A stretch of DNA of 64,000 nucleotides from Mytilinidion resinicola. Its lineage: Eukaryota > Ascomycota > Dothideomycetes > Mytilinidiales > Mytilinidiaceae. The position numbers were made by a program, and so were the translations under genes. Under the pieces are notes generated by a model that saw nothing but the letters and a program-made list of their open reading frames with translations, was not told the origin of the DNA and did no database searches. The stretch lies in NCBI RefSeq assembly GCF_010093595.1, contig NW_022985456.1, positions 615,744-679,743 on the forward strand, written 5' to 3'. Shown here piece by piece: positions 20,507-29,674 of this stretch. Within the stretch, counting starts at the first letter, position 1. Every line of letters begins with the position of its first letter.

Positions 20507-21506
20507 NNNNNNNNNNNNNNNNNNNNNNNNNNNNNNNNNNNNNNNNNNNNNNNNNNNNNNNNNNNNNNNNNNNNNNNNNNNNNNNNNNNNNNNNNNNNNN
20601 NNNNNNNNNNNNNNNNNNNNNNNNNNNNNNNNNNNNNNNNNNNNNNNNNNNNNNNNNNNNNNNNNNNNNNNNNNNNNNNNNNNNNNNNNNNNNNNNNNNN
20701 NNNNNNNNNNNNNNNNNNNNNNNNNNNNNNNNNNNNNNNNNNNNNNNNNNNNNNNNNNNNNNNNNNNNNNNNNNNNNNNNNNNNNNNNNNNNNNNNNNNN
20801 NNNNNNNNNNNNNNNNNNNNNNNNNNNNNNNNNNNNNNNNNNNNNNNNNNNNNNNNNNNNNNNNNNNNNNNNNNNNNNNNNNNNNNNNNNNNNNNNNNNN
20901 NNNNNNNNNNNNNNNNNNNNNNNNNNNNNNNNNNNNNNNNNNNNNNNNNNNNNNNNNNNNNNNNNNNNNNNNNNNNNNNNNNNNNNNNNNNNNNNNNNNN
21001 NNNNNNNNNNNNNNNNNNNNNNNNNNNNNNNNNNNNNNNNNNNNNNNNNNNNNNNNNNNNNNNNNNNNNNNNNNNNNNNNNNNNNNNNNNNNNNNNNNNN
21101 NNNNNNNNNNNNNNNNNNNNNNNNNNNNNNNNNNNNNNNNNNNNNNNNNNNNNNNNNNNNNNNNNNNNNNNNNNNNNNNNNNNNNNNNNNNNNNNNNNNN
21201 NNNNNNNNNNNNNNNNNNNNNNNNNNNNNNNNNNNNNNNNNNNNNNNNNNNNNNNNNNNNNNNNNNNNNNNNNNNNNNNNNNNNNNNNNNNNNNNNNNNN
21301 NNNNNNNNNNNNNNNNNNNNNNNNNNNNNNNNNNNNNNNNNNNNNNNNNNNNNNNNNNNNNNNNNNNNNNNNNNNNNNNNNNNNNNNNNNNNNNNNNNNN
21401 NNNNNNNNNNNNNNNNNNNNNNNNNNNNNNNNNNNNNNNNNNNNNNNNNNNNNNNNNNNNNNNNNNNNNNNNNNNNNNNNNNNNNNNNNNNNNNNNNNNN
21501 NNNNNN
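20507..21506. other. Assembly gap, exactly 1000 N
   Basis: A run of exactly 1000 undetermined bases, most likely a scaffolding placeholder caused by the repeat. The real distance may differ. Confidence 0.97.
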
Positions 21507-23914: not shown

Positions 23915-24350
23915 ACTTTACTACTCCTCCAGCGGGTGACGACTACTCCAATATCAAAGGCTGGGGACGCAGAGCTCTAATAGGGTCTTATCTAAAGAGT
24001 GAAGTGCACGATTTGCTAAGCAATGAATTGCTCCTCACGGCTGAAGTAGGTAAGCAAACAATCGAGAAGCTGACCCTGCTGCCTAGGTGTCTATCTTGTG
24101 TAACGTGAGCTGCAAGCCATGGCTACGTGCATGAGCCGATCACCGACTTCACCTCATCACAGTCTTGCTTCACCTCATCACAGTCTTGCTTCACCTCATC
24201 ACAATCTTGCTTCACCTCATCACAATCTTGCTTCACCTCATCACAATCTTGCTTCACCTCATCACAGTTTTGCTTCACCTCATCACAGTTTTGCTTCACC
24301 ACAACTTTGGCAGCATTAATACGCCTGTTGTAGTGATCACAGCTGTCGAT
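23915..24350. promoter_or_regulatory. Divergent promoter/leader between the AAA_28-like gene and the RdRP-helicase gene
   Basis: 436 bases that include a 21-bp tandem repeat (24147-24293) directly before the RdRP start. Apart from that repeat I see no core-promoter element. The region is too short to hold the missing N-terminal half of a normal RdRP. Confidence 0.4.
24147..24293. repeat. Tandem repeat, seven 21-bp units
   Basis: Seven full units of cttcacctcatcacaRtYttg plus a partial eighth. Copies fall into three sequence groups (cagtcttg ×2, caatcttg ×3, cagttttg ×2), so the array grew by local duplication. As 21 is a multiple of 3, all three forward frames and at least one reverse frame stay open; the forward frame that leads into the RdRP would read (LLHLITI)n. 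Confidence 0.93.
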
Positions 24351-27300
24351 ATGGAGAAGTTCCGATGCAAGCTCCAAGACACCATCACACCCAAAGATCA
24401 ATGGTGGAACTTCACTGTGGACGGACTCCCTAAGCCCGCTCGCACGAATGCGGCAAGTTTGATCAAATTCGTATCCGTTACGTCCAATGCAAAAACACAA
24501 GAGATAGTGTTGAGCCTCCAAAAGTGTTCGCCGAATCGGATCACGGCGTCCGATCCCTTGGACAAGTTCATTCAGATCAGCTTCTCCGATTTCCGTCTTC
24601 AGGTACCAATTACTGGAAAGCCCAATGCTACAGATCAGGCCTCTCCAAGAGAATCATCAGACTACATCACCAGGCTACTTCGGGATGGGATCCAGATTAA
24701 TGGTGTTCAATACTACTTTTTCGGCCACAGTAACAGTCAGCTAAAGTCGAGATCATGCCTTCTCTACGCCGCACCCAGACAGGAAATCTCTCGGAAGGTG
24801 GAGAGCCTTGGTGATTTTTCAAAAATCAAGTCAGTGGCTAAGAAAGCAAAGCGGATTGGACTGCTGTTTTCGGCCGCCGACATGGGAGTTTGCCTTCCCC
24901 CGGAACGATGCGAAGATATCCCTGATATCCAGAACAAGGAGTACAACTTTACCGATGGCTGTGGGCTCATCGGTATCCATCTCGCCCGACGCTTAGCAAA
25001 ATCCGCCAATGTACATTTTCGAAACAAGAAGTATCTACCCTCCGTATACCAAATCCGTTACCGTGGATACAAAGGCGTCTTGACCTTAGAACCAGCGCTA
25101 GGAGGCGAGAAACAAGTTCAGTTCAGAGATTCCATGCGCAAGTTCAAAGAGGCGGCAGACTTGACATTATCGGTCGTCGACTATTCAAAGGTGCGTGAGT
25201 ATTGGCCCATTGTAGGACTCTTTGCTTACTACGCTTCAGCCTTATGCTTTTGGTTACCTCAACGATGAGGTTATCATCCTATTACATGCTCTGGGCATTT
25301 CAACTAAGGTTATTGTAGCGAAGCAGGCTCAACATATCGAGTTTCTTGCCCAGGTTCGAGCGCTCCACCCTCAAGCAGCCTTTCAATTTCTCTGCTTCTC
25401 CAGTCGCATGGATCTCGCCGAACGTCTCTTAATCGAAGGAGTTGAGTCCGTCAAATCGCATATCACCAAACTGGTCAAGGACGAGCAAACCAAGATGATC
25501 AATAAGCGCGGAGAGCAGAAATCTCGCATCTTCATTCAAAGTTCACGCCTACTCTTCGGTGTTTGCGATCCGTATAGTATTCTCAAGGAAGGTCAGTGCT
25601 TCGCACGAGTGACAGCACACCAGGATGGGGAGCCGCGAACGATCGCAGGTACGGAGGTCTTAGTTACGAGGAATCCTTGCCTTCATCCGGGCGATCTACA
25701 AAAGTTCAAGGCGGTCGAATGTCCCGAATTGTCCCATCTCGTCGACTGCATCGTATTTCCAACTCGCGGAAAAAGAGCGAGCGCTGATTTGATGTCGGGA
25801 GGAGACCTTGACGGGGACAAATGTAAGTCTAACTCTGAAGTTTCAGTACCTCCTGCTGATGGCATCAGTCTTCGTATGTTGGGACCCAGATATCGTCCCA
25901 CGTACCGTCTCTGAGCCAGCAGAATATCCCGGAGGAAAAGAACCCGTAACATTCGGTGCCATCACCGACGATGACCGAATCAAATACTTTGCCGAATATA
26001 CTTCAGTCTCACTTGGACAAGTGAAGAACCTATATCTTGATTGGGCAAGGCTCAAGGGGCCCATGAGCGCGGAGTGCCAGCAGCTGAACCGACTATTCTC
26101 CCAGTGCGTCGACGGGAATCGAATCAAAATTCCAGATCACTTCAAGGATCCACCAAAACCGCCTCCAGATACTCCTACCTTCATTCTAGATGTTCTTCAC
26201 GAGGAAGCCAAAAGTCTGCTCGATGCGGCCGCGATAATCCCTCGTAACATAGAAGACTGTTCTTTTGACACTCTAGAGTTGCTACTTAGTCGAGATACCT
26301 TAGCCTTGTCAGAATTCGAATTGATTCAGCTGGTCCTCAGGTGGTGCGACAAGAACCACGAGCCCTTGTCTGAACTCGCAACTCTCTTCGACTTCAATTT
26401 CTTGAGCGATGAACAGAAAGCCTGGACGCTGACGAGGCTTCCGACAACTGACAATCTATCGTGCTTGGTCATGAACGGTCTTATGCAATCCGATATCGTA
26501 AGTCACACGGAGCTGAACCGATTTGGTTTGCATCATCCAGGTCTGAGGTGGAAGCGCGTATTTGACTCCACTTTGGACCGTATGGGAGCTTTTTTAGGTT
26601 CCACTTCAAGGATTCTCGAAATCTTCCACAAGAAGCTGATCGTGCTTCGCATTGACGAGAGATTGAGCGTAGCGATTTACGTCCCGAAGAAGATTGAACC
26701 GCACCAGGAATGCGAGGTTGACGCCAGCGTCCGAGTCTTCGCGTTCCCGCACTCGCAAGGCGGCCAATCTCCCAACTACGTTGTCGTGCCCACCAAAGTC
26801 AATTACCGTCTCTTTTGCGACTCTTCTGCTCTTCAGCTTTACCAAGGCGAGAGGCGCAATACTTGGATATTCCTACAGCACGGCCCCTTGAACGACAGCG
26901 CGTATCGAAATACTAAAAGTACTGGTGACAGAAGAAGGAAAAAGCAGATGACCGTTGATGAAGGCGCGAATCTTGAGCTGCGGGCTAGCATCGCGCTGGA
27001 TAAGATCAATAAAAGGATACAGGCTCACGTAGGACGAGTGAACCGCACTGGTGTTCTTGCAGCAGTAAGTGACTTGGCTCCTCGTTTCTGCAGTCAGATT
27101 TCTCATAACCACTATATAGGAGGTGTACGTGATCAGCAATAGAGATGTCAAGTCCTTGCAAAAGCTTGACGAGTGGCTCAACTACATCGACACGGAGAAC
27201 ACGCTTCCACTCTTCGAACAAGAAGCGCGTGCTTATACTACAACAACGTTGAAGGACATTGATTGGTCCGTACTTCCGGAATTCTTCTCGGCCATTGCAA

Positions 27301-29674
27301 GGGACGGGAAGGTTCACGAAGCTAGGAACATAGAATCTGTGGGTGGTCTCACGGCACTCCTCGACTGGCTACTTTGCTTGAAACAACATACCACAATAGG
27401 CGCTATCTATCGACTACTTCTGGAACCAGAGGCAATACAGAAGCTGTCCGATAGGGAGATTTTGGAGATCTTGCTCCGATATCTACCTCACGTTCCTTGG
27501 GTTTCTGCGATTATTCTTAAATCTCACCTTTGGGACCACCATCGCGAGGAAACCCCATTCAGAGATGAAGTCACGGGGATGTCTTTCAATATCTTACGCA
27601 ACCTGACACTTTCTGCCTGCCGCGTTGGCGACTTCATCACGGAACCGTTGCAAAGCGTCCTCCAAGAGATGAGGCAACTCCGCCATCAAGAACTTTCCGA
27701 GCTCGTCGAATTGATTGCATTGACAGCCCCATCTGCGGAGTCCGCAATGAAGTTGATGCTGGAGATCATAGATCCGGAAACCAGTCGCCTCATTGTTGGG
27801 CCTCCAGTAGCAACTGCAGGATTCGCGAAACAGCTCTTTGGAATTGCGCTAGAGCATGTAGACGAGACCGAAGAAGCTAAGAAAGCGAAAAACTTTCCGA
27901 ATAGTCAATTACTTGATTTGACATACAAACACGAAAGCAAGGGATTCTCCATCGTCGAATGCAAGCTCCGGATCGACTCCAAGATTGGTGTTAGAATGGG
28001 AGACCACGTACGATTGACTCCAGCATCGCGGCCTGAAAATGAGCCGGGAAGAAGCCTTGTTGCCATTGACGCAATAGTGGAGTCGGCCGACATGGGCCTT
28101 GGCACATTCCGCTGCCTTCAAGGCCTACCTGAGTATTTAGGAAATTGCTCTTGGACCCTGCTGAACTGCGGTTCATTTACTAGTTGCAAAACGATGATCG
28201 ACGCAGTGACGAGCCTCTATACGGAAAAGCTAGAATGCTGCAGGATCTACGACACCTTGACGCTTCGGAGTGGTAAAGCTAAATCGGGATTCGTGAAATT
28301 GCCATTCCAAATCGATACCGCCCTCAACGACAGTCAGAACCGAGCTATCGAATCTGCAATGGTCAATCCAGTCAGCTTGCTATGGGGCCCACCAGGCACT
28401 GGGAAGACCCGGACGGTGGTCGCGATCTTGCTCCAACTACTCGTCGCGGCGGCAGACAAGCGTATATTAGTTACTGCTCCCACCCACAACGCTGTCGATA
28501 ACATACTTCGGAAGTTTATTGACGAAGGCGTTCATACAAGAACTAATACTACTCCCATCCGGGTATCAACTGATGTCAGATGAAATTCCTAGACCTTGCA
28601 TCCATCCCAACACTGACTAGTTACCAGGTCCGAAAAGTGGCTGAAGATTTGAAATCATACACGTGCGACGCGATGCTTGGGAAAGACTTGAACGCCTACT
28701 TCTCCGCACGCAAAAAAGCCCAAAAAAGAGTCAAAGAATGCCGGCTAGTGTTCACAACCTGCATCGGAGCCAACCTAGGCCTGCTCCGCGACGAAAAGTT
28801 TTCTATCGTACTTATCGATGAAGCCTCTCAGCAGACCGAAGCTACGACGATAGTCCCGCTAGTCAAAGGCTGCGAGCGGGCAGTCTTGGTTGGCGACCAT
28901 GTGCAATTACGTGCAACGGTTGGGCCACATGCGCAAGCGGTCGATTTTAACGTCTCACTCTTTGAACGAATGTACGCCAATGCCAACCGCCCGGACGTAC
29001 AAAAGATTATGCTTGATAGCCAATACCGTATGCACCGAGACATCTGCGCCTTCAGCTCGACGGAATTTTATGGCGGGAAGCTCGCGACTGCAGTTACGAA
29101 CGATTCGAGACCTCTCCCCATTTCGAAGTATCTATGGCCACTGCTGCCATCGAAAGACTCTGCTCGGATGGTCTTTATGCAATGCTCGACTAGCGAGGAT
29201 CTTGGCCACAAATCGAAGGGTAATCCAGGGCAAACGGCACTCTGTCGCGAAATATGCGCTCTTCTTGCAACGCCCCAGGACCCCAAAATACCGATGCAGA
29301 AACACTCCGTTGTCATCTTGACTGGCTATAACCGTCAAGTCGAGCTTCTGCAAAGCCCTCCCATTCCCGGTGTGGAGGCGTTCAGCGTTGATGGCTTCCA
29401 AGGGCGGGAAGCGGACATCGTGATATTCGTGACGGTAAGATGCAATCAGTCCAAGACGATGGGATTTCTCACAGATATGAGACGGCTGAATGTTGCTTTG
29501 ACGCGGGCTAAAGCGGGCTTGATTATCATCGGGGACCGCGCTACGCTAGAGGAAGGGAATGATGAAGTCAGTGCGGCGTTGTGGAAGAGGTTGATTGCGT
29601 GTTGCAGCGTTGTTGCTCTTCCGGATAGCACCGCGAAGACCGCGATGACCAGCCGGCCGAAAGGTCAGAGATGA
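24351..29674 (+). CDS. RNA-dependent RNA polymerase core fused to an SF1 (UPF1/SAD-3/Hrr1-type) helicase
   Basis: Exons 24351-25190, 25240-25822, 25869-27064, 27120-28562 and 28628-29674 give 5109 nt, 1702 aa (an alternative donor at 28575 adds four residues). Residues ~40-590 match the cellular, double-psi-beta-barrel RdRP of RNA silencing: SRSCLLYAA, GDFSKIKSVAKKAKRIG, FTDGCGLIG, YQIRYRGYKGVL, NPCLHPGDLQKF, LVDCIVFPTRGKR and the catalytic GGDLDGDKFFVCWDP (Asp triad intact, about 467-473). A BACK-like helical piece (about 621-665) and a long helical linker follow. Residues ~1275-1690 hold a complete SF1 helicase: Q motif LNDSQNRAI, Walker A GPPGTGKT, DEAS box, GDHVQLRATV, SQYRMH, VDGFQGREADIV and RRLNVALTRAK. 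The 25869-27064 exon runs unbroken from RdRP into helicase linker, so this is one frame, not two genes. The start is the first ATG in frame. The usual RdRP N-terminal region is absent. Predicted role: double-stranded RNA synthesis in quelling or heterochromatic silencing. Confidence 0.85.

Follow-up and report, generated by a model that had tools for sequence, protein, structure and literature searches.

A Mytilinidion Ortholog of FgRdRp5 Joins an RNA-Dependent RNA Polymerase to a UPF1/SEN1-Type Helicase and Seems To Carry a TLDc-like Module between Them

The closest described counterparts of the gene analyzed here are two Fusarium proteins: FgRdRp5 (FGSG_09076) of Fusarium graminearum, an RNA-dependent RNA polymerase (RdRP) reported in 2015 with a C-terminal DEAD-like helicase and an AAA domain (PMC4515635), placed on a separate RdRP branch and studied by deletion in mBio in 2024 (PMC11237814), and FFUJ_03638 of F. 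fujikuroi, described in 2024 as an RdRP with ATPase domains (PMC11130915). Deletion of FgRdRp5 brought ascospore discharge down to 47.6%, put antisense-exon small RNAs at 18.91% instead of 27.3%, and left 5′-U reads of 21–25 nt about 32% lower (PMC11237814). Helicase and RdRP also share one chain in Dictyostelium, peronosporomycete oomycetes, Hydra, and Nematostella (PMC4791657, PMC3661229), where the helicase is a Dicer-like DEAD-box plus helicase-C pair that is amino-terminal in the oomycete and so ordered in the others (PMC3661229), whereas in the RNA-directed RNA polymerase complex (RDRC) of Schizosaccharomyces pombe (Rdp1 and Hrr1), as in SAD-1 and SAD-3 of Neurospora, the RdRP and the superfamily 1 (SF1) helicase that take part in RNA silencing are separate proteins. 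In the window considered here, a stretch of 64,000 nucleotides of Mytilinidion resinicola DNA (contig NW_022985456.1), a single gene at 24351-29674 on the + strand encodes an RdRP followed by an SF1 helicase. Judged from its sequence, it is the ortholog of FgRdRp5 in Mytilinidion, and a real, intact member of a known, little-studied class: FGSG_09076 (P0081) aligns with 100% of the window protein at 46% identity and falls in the same clade in both the helicase and the RdRP trees, and FgRdRp5 and FFUJ_03638 share its length class and its order of RdRP, then helicase. The first-pass annotation of this DNA had known of no described fungal fusion of this kind, a claim to novelty that fails because FgRdRp5 was already published.

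From an ATG at 24351 to a stop codon whose last base is 29674, five exons splice to 1706 amino acids (aa) with zero internal stops, as follows:

24351..29674, + strand: RdRP-helicase fusion, whole gene, 1706 aa, five exons, collinear with 17 aligned full-length relatives
24351..25190, + strand: exon 1, aa 1-280, followed by intron 25191-25239 (GTGCGT...CAG)
25240..25822, + strand: exon 2, followed by intron 25823-25868 (GTAAGT...CAG)
25869..27064, + strand: exon 3, across the RdRP-helicase join, followed by intron 27065-27119 (GTAAGT...TAG)
27120..28574, + strand: exon 4, followed by intron 28575-28627 (GTCAGA...CAG)
28628..29674, + strand: exon 5, including the stop codon

Two donors of intron 4 are in frame, 28575 and 28563 (the latter ending exon 4 at 28562 and dropping four conserved residues), and we chose 28575, with its unusual GTCAGA, because RVSTDVRKV is present in relatives at that place. 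The Pfam scan of the window protein was made on the 1702-aa version given by donor 28563, and motif positions are those of the 1706-aa version. The first-pass annotation had assigned the RdRP and the SF1 helicase to one spliced frame, with exon 25869-27064 open over the join; its coordinates are right, the motifs are intact, and the ends of that exon are exact, with no stop inside it. The elements of the two enzymatic halves are these:

24558..26182, + strand: RdRP domain PF05183, aa 70-579 (Pfam E 8.8e-121)
25798..25818, + strand: RdRP catalytic motif GGDLDGD, aa 467-473, invariant in 17 relatives
28320..29539, + strand: SF1 helicase core (Pfam AAA_11 and AAA_12), aa 1274-1662
28386..28409, + strand: Walker A motif GPPGTGKT, intact
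28817..28828, + strand: Walker B motif DEAS, intact

AAA_11 and AAA_12 reach Pfam E values of 4.9e-41 and 4.2e-46 in the window protein, and the helicase motifs start at residues 1296 (GPPGTGKT), 1325 (TAPTHNAVD), 1422 (DEAS), 1447 (GDHVQL), 1613 (DGFQGREAD), and 1649 (LTRA). In a profile search of solved structures, plant RDR2 scores 317.9 bits and UPF1 289.1 bits; plant RDR2 is also the best solved match for the fusion RdRP (202.8 bits, vs 70.7 bits for QDE-1), and UPF1/NAM7 is that for the helicase half. The papers' DEAD-like label for the FgRdRp5 helicase differs from what is found here, where PF00270 (DEAD) appears only below the Pfam cut-off and the helicase domains are SF1, of UPF1 type, and C-terminal, unlike the N-terminal SF2 helicase of the Dictyostelium and oomycete chains. 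The SF1 core is shared with UPF1/NAM7, SEN1, and IGHMBP2, but, in contrast to UPF1 and SEN1, neither the UPF1 zinc-binding domain (PF09416) nor SEN1_N is listed for the window protein at Pfam E ≤1.

When the full-length protein was used as query, 645 of 7983 scored candidates matched at E ≤1e-3; of the best 120 of these 645, 119 have both PF05183 and PF13086, and 113 have PF13087 as well, in line with the earlier proposal of a natural fusion encoded by one gene. (The Hrr1 and RdRP homologue searches are represented by the best 120 of 1301 and the best 120 of 494 matches, respectively.) The named matches among the best listed come from six classes of Pezizomycotina, Dothideomycetes, Sordariomycetes, Leotiomycetes, Eurotiomycetes, Lecanoromycetes, and Pezizomycetes, with the class checked for Kalaharituber, Mytilinidion, Dirinaria, and Glarea. 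Across 18 proteins (the window protein and 17 chosen relatives), mean pairwise identity is 58.7% in the RdRP, 38.7% and 33.3% in the two middle stretches, and 56.4% in the helicase, with a correlation of 0.87 between the pairwise values for the RdRP and those for the helicase; of 254 columns invariant across the 17 other fusions, 251 are also kept in the window protein. Public records give two Venturia orthologs (P0001 and P0079) the name methylisocitrate lyase, apparently transferred in error, and two further matches (P0005 and P0098) have additional unrelated Pfam domains, which we take to be of short-chain dehydrogenase and transporter types, and are probably merged gene models.

The genome has RdRP matches in four places. 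In a tree of 36 RdRP sequences, with the fusions cut to their first 620-680 residues and the root on the long branch of the QDE-1-like L060, the 18 fusion RdRPs (support 94/85) are sister to basidiomycete homologs and five unnamed environmental proteins (90/78), and the two groups together are separate from the genome's three further RdRPs (97/96). Among these three, L060 scores 342.5 bits to QDE-1, and L058 is RDR2-like at 329.2 bits; the third, L059 on contig C4, opens with a stretch that to the eye resembles an RNA-recognition motif, a feature reported for SAD-1. Three of 13 named basidiomycete proteins (P0330, P0351, and P0342) are collinear with the window protein through the whole middle up to aa 1224-1225 and end at most 12 residues past aa 1225 with unlike tails, in a search that covered proteins of up to ~1232 aa only. 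The sequences thus point to a polymerase class shared by Pezizomycotina fusions and Agaricomycetes, the basidiomycete genera being presumably Agaricomycetes (checked for Mycena). This basidiomycete sister group was not found in the available excerpts of the literature, and the excerpt at hand of a study of RdRPs in a mushroom mentions no helicase on them. We note that three environmental proteins (P0280, P0287, and P0359), placed next to the basidiomycetes by the RdRP tree, are possibly another fungal lineage of the class.

On the helicase side, a 37-row tree of SF1 cores unites the 18 fusion helicases in one clade (100/100), which falls with UPF1, SEN1, DNA2, IGHMBP2-like proteins, and one unnamed protein encoded by this genome (99/98); Hrr1 instead joins two NFX1-type helicases (99/95). 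Grouping the fusion with UPF1 is not rejected by the approximately unbiased (AU) test (p 0.279). Both motifs and grouping place the helicase in the UPF1/SEN1/IGHMBP2-type branch of SF1 as a whole. The genome's UPF1, SEN1, DNA2, and AQR were named from Pfam domains and Hrr1 from homolog names, and the labels IGHMBP2-like and NFX1-type are our own reading. The helicase trees were built without L055 and L056, pieces that lack the Walker A stretch, L054 is in no tree, and both trees flag long branches.

Between the two enzymes lies a stretch of several predicted modules:

26240..26554, + strand: BACK-like helical bundle, ~aa 599-703, tentative
26465..27137, + strand: TLDc-like domain, ~aa 674-879, split by intron 3
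27276..27881, + strand: all-helical region, ~aa 926-1127, from the predicted structure of the Lophium ortholog, residues transferred by alignment
27915..28172, + strand: beta-barrel where UPF1 has its 1B domain, ~aa 1139-1224, from predicted structure

The beta-barrel is called 1B by position, the UPF1 rows across it having a poor root-mean-square deviation of 12-13. A TLDc fold is found between RdRP and helicase in the predicted structures of two orthologs, and solved V-ATPase complexes of TLDc proteins are among the structural matches of an ortholog model. From these models, the middle seems to carry a TLDc-like module, perhaps preceded by a BACK-like bundle. Several results weigh against this assignment. 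The Foldseek E values for TLDc are just 0.02-0.1; PF07534 appears, below the cut-off, in 2 of the 17 relatives (best E 0.09), and TLD is not listed by Pfam for the window protein; BACK (PF07707) likewise stays below the cut-off; in 10 further, shorter relatives, neither TLD nor BACK appears at Pfam E ≤10. A genome-wide search with PF07534 leads to two other places, the fusion gene not among them, and alignment with hhalign to the genome's TLDc protein L061 was negative (Prob 0.1), a weak test with a single template sequence. Compared with the TLDc proteins NCOA7, OXR2, mEAK7, TBC1D24, and yeast Rtc5, identity is 7-13%, and the Pfam cut-off is not reached. Because PF07534 stays below the cut-off, we name the module TLDc-like rather than TLDc. 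Such a module in FgRdRp5-class proteins is apparently unreported, the available excerpts of PMC11237814, PMC4515635, and PMC11130915 holding no mention of TLDc or BACK for FgRdRp5 or FFUJ_03638. If confirmed, the module would connect RNA silencing with TLDc proteins, a link that does not appear among the 15 of 1,351 papers listed by a literature search.

Taking these observations together, we consider it probable that this FgRdRp5 ortholog represents a separate class of silencing RdRP, in which the RdRP, a possible BACK-like bundle, the TLDc-like module, the helical region, the beta-barrel, and the UPF1/SEN1-type helicase work as one machine that clears messenger RNA (mRNA) and copies it for the production of exonic small interfering RNAs (siRNAs). 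The helicase end would engage an mRNA and strip it of protein and structure at the expense of ATP, the attached RdRP would copy the same molecule to double-stranded RNA, and Dicer would cut this product to exonic siRNAs. The motors of UPF1, SEN1, and IGHMBP2 move 5′ to 3′. A UPF1-type motor with this polarity would meet head-on, on one and the same strand, a polymerase that travels along its template from 3′ to 5′, and the opposed directions make clearing, selection, or proofing of the template before copying likelier than unwinding ahead of synthesis. By this analogy, it is more likely that the helicase clears or selects the template than that it walks ahead of the polymerase. We infer that both enzymes are active and coupled, which substrate they choose, and any part played by the TLDc-like module, whereas a contribution to exonic siRNAs is known from the deletion of the Fusarium ortholog and, by analogy, may hold here too, as a partial effect. 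The fusion lets one ask if the selection of an mRNA and its copying are physically coupled in RNA silencing.

Other explanations of the same locus differ widely in how well they account for these data. That annotation merged two adjacent genes is scarcely credible: the gene is known here from DNA alone, and the three basidiomycete proteins mentioned above do stop within 12 residues of position 1225 in the size-limited search, yet the RdRP, AAA_11, and AAA_12 lie in a single predicted protein in 113 of the best 120 matches, no stop interrupts exons 3 and 4 across the join, and residues 580-1272 are also conserved. Given the collinear full-length relatives, two separate genes are very unlikely, and so is an artefact of gene prediction, given that annotations made independently arrive at this fused protein as well. 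We also regard as very improbable the origin that the first-pass annotation had put forward, a fusion of the RDRC subunits Rdp1 and Hrr1/SAD-3 into one chain that does the work of the fission yeast complex. The pair of activities is the same, and Hrr1 and SAD-3 are silencing helicases (PMC5384783); however, with Dothideomycetes proteins as the Hrr1 reference (S. pombe Rdp1 and Hrr1 are not among the rows of the trees), a single clade of fusion and Hrr1 is rejected, under the model used, in the 37-row tree (AU p 4.29e-5), and again in the 34-row tree (p 2.85e-5), from which three long branches, DNA2, AQR, and an unnamed 890-aa helicase, were dropped. Hrr1 thus belongs to another SF1 branch. Furthermore, the genome retains a separate Hrr1 gene (L051), whose product matches a M. 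resinicola protein at 100% identity over 99% of its length. It carries the ZNFX1 domain PF25396, which is not listed for the window protein at Pfam E ≤1 and does not figure in the list for the 17 relatives, where 25 of 40 families are given. The genome's three other RdRPs are also distinct from that of the fusion. The AU test does not reject a deeper grouping of the fusion with Hrr1 plus the NFX1 types (p 0.111), which tells against placing the helicase with UPF1 and SEN1.

The more serious alternative, which we nevertheless think unlikely, is that the protein serves mainly mRNA surveillance or ribosome biogenesis, as a UPF1-like helicase with a minor or relic RdRP. The best solved match of its helicase is consistent with such a role, and ribosome biogenesis genes are enriched among those altered in the Fusarium deletion, whose authors also suggest ribosomal RNA processing or nonsense-mediated decay (PMC11237814). 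The same study speaks further against the proposed silencing role in that the effect of the deletion is partial and two other RdRPs affected small RNAs more (PMC11237814), and neither an enzyme activity nor a transcript of any class member was found in the literature excerpts available. Against a relic polymerase, in turn, stand the GGDLDGD motif, which is unchanged in all 17 relatives and intact in the window protein, the mean pairwise identity of the RdRP, the highest of the four stretches, and the reduction of exonic siRNAs on deletion of FgRdRp5 (PMC11237814); the genome, moreover, already has a true UPF1 with the zinc-binding domain PF09416 (L046). A bolder extension of the proposed silencing role, by analogy with Rtc5, mEAK7, and NCOA7, would see in these proteins an ancient Dikarya class of RdRP-BACK-TLDc-UPF1-like helicases whose TLDc domain docks on the V-ATPase or on vacuole-type membranes and so ties double-stranded RNA synthesis to membranes or cell stress; this we hold to be doubtful, and somewhat less likely still than the surveillance role.

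A viral origin was considered and rejected, as a scan of viral contigs gave 25 pattern matches and no relative, and in a library of viral folds a phage AAA protein was the one match at E ≤0.001, followed by TLD-like rows of weaker score. The proposal of a repeat-rich AT island close to the gene was likewise rejected: positions 20507-21506 are exactly 1000 N, an assembly gap, and this run explains the low GC at 20-22 kb. Upstream of the gene, a 21-bp minisatellite of 7.3 copies with 97% matches occupies 24147-24300, its end 50 bases short of the ATG; a probe of 91 bases from it has genome matches only inside the array, in a search that passes over very common words.

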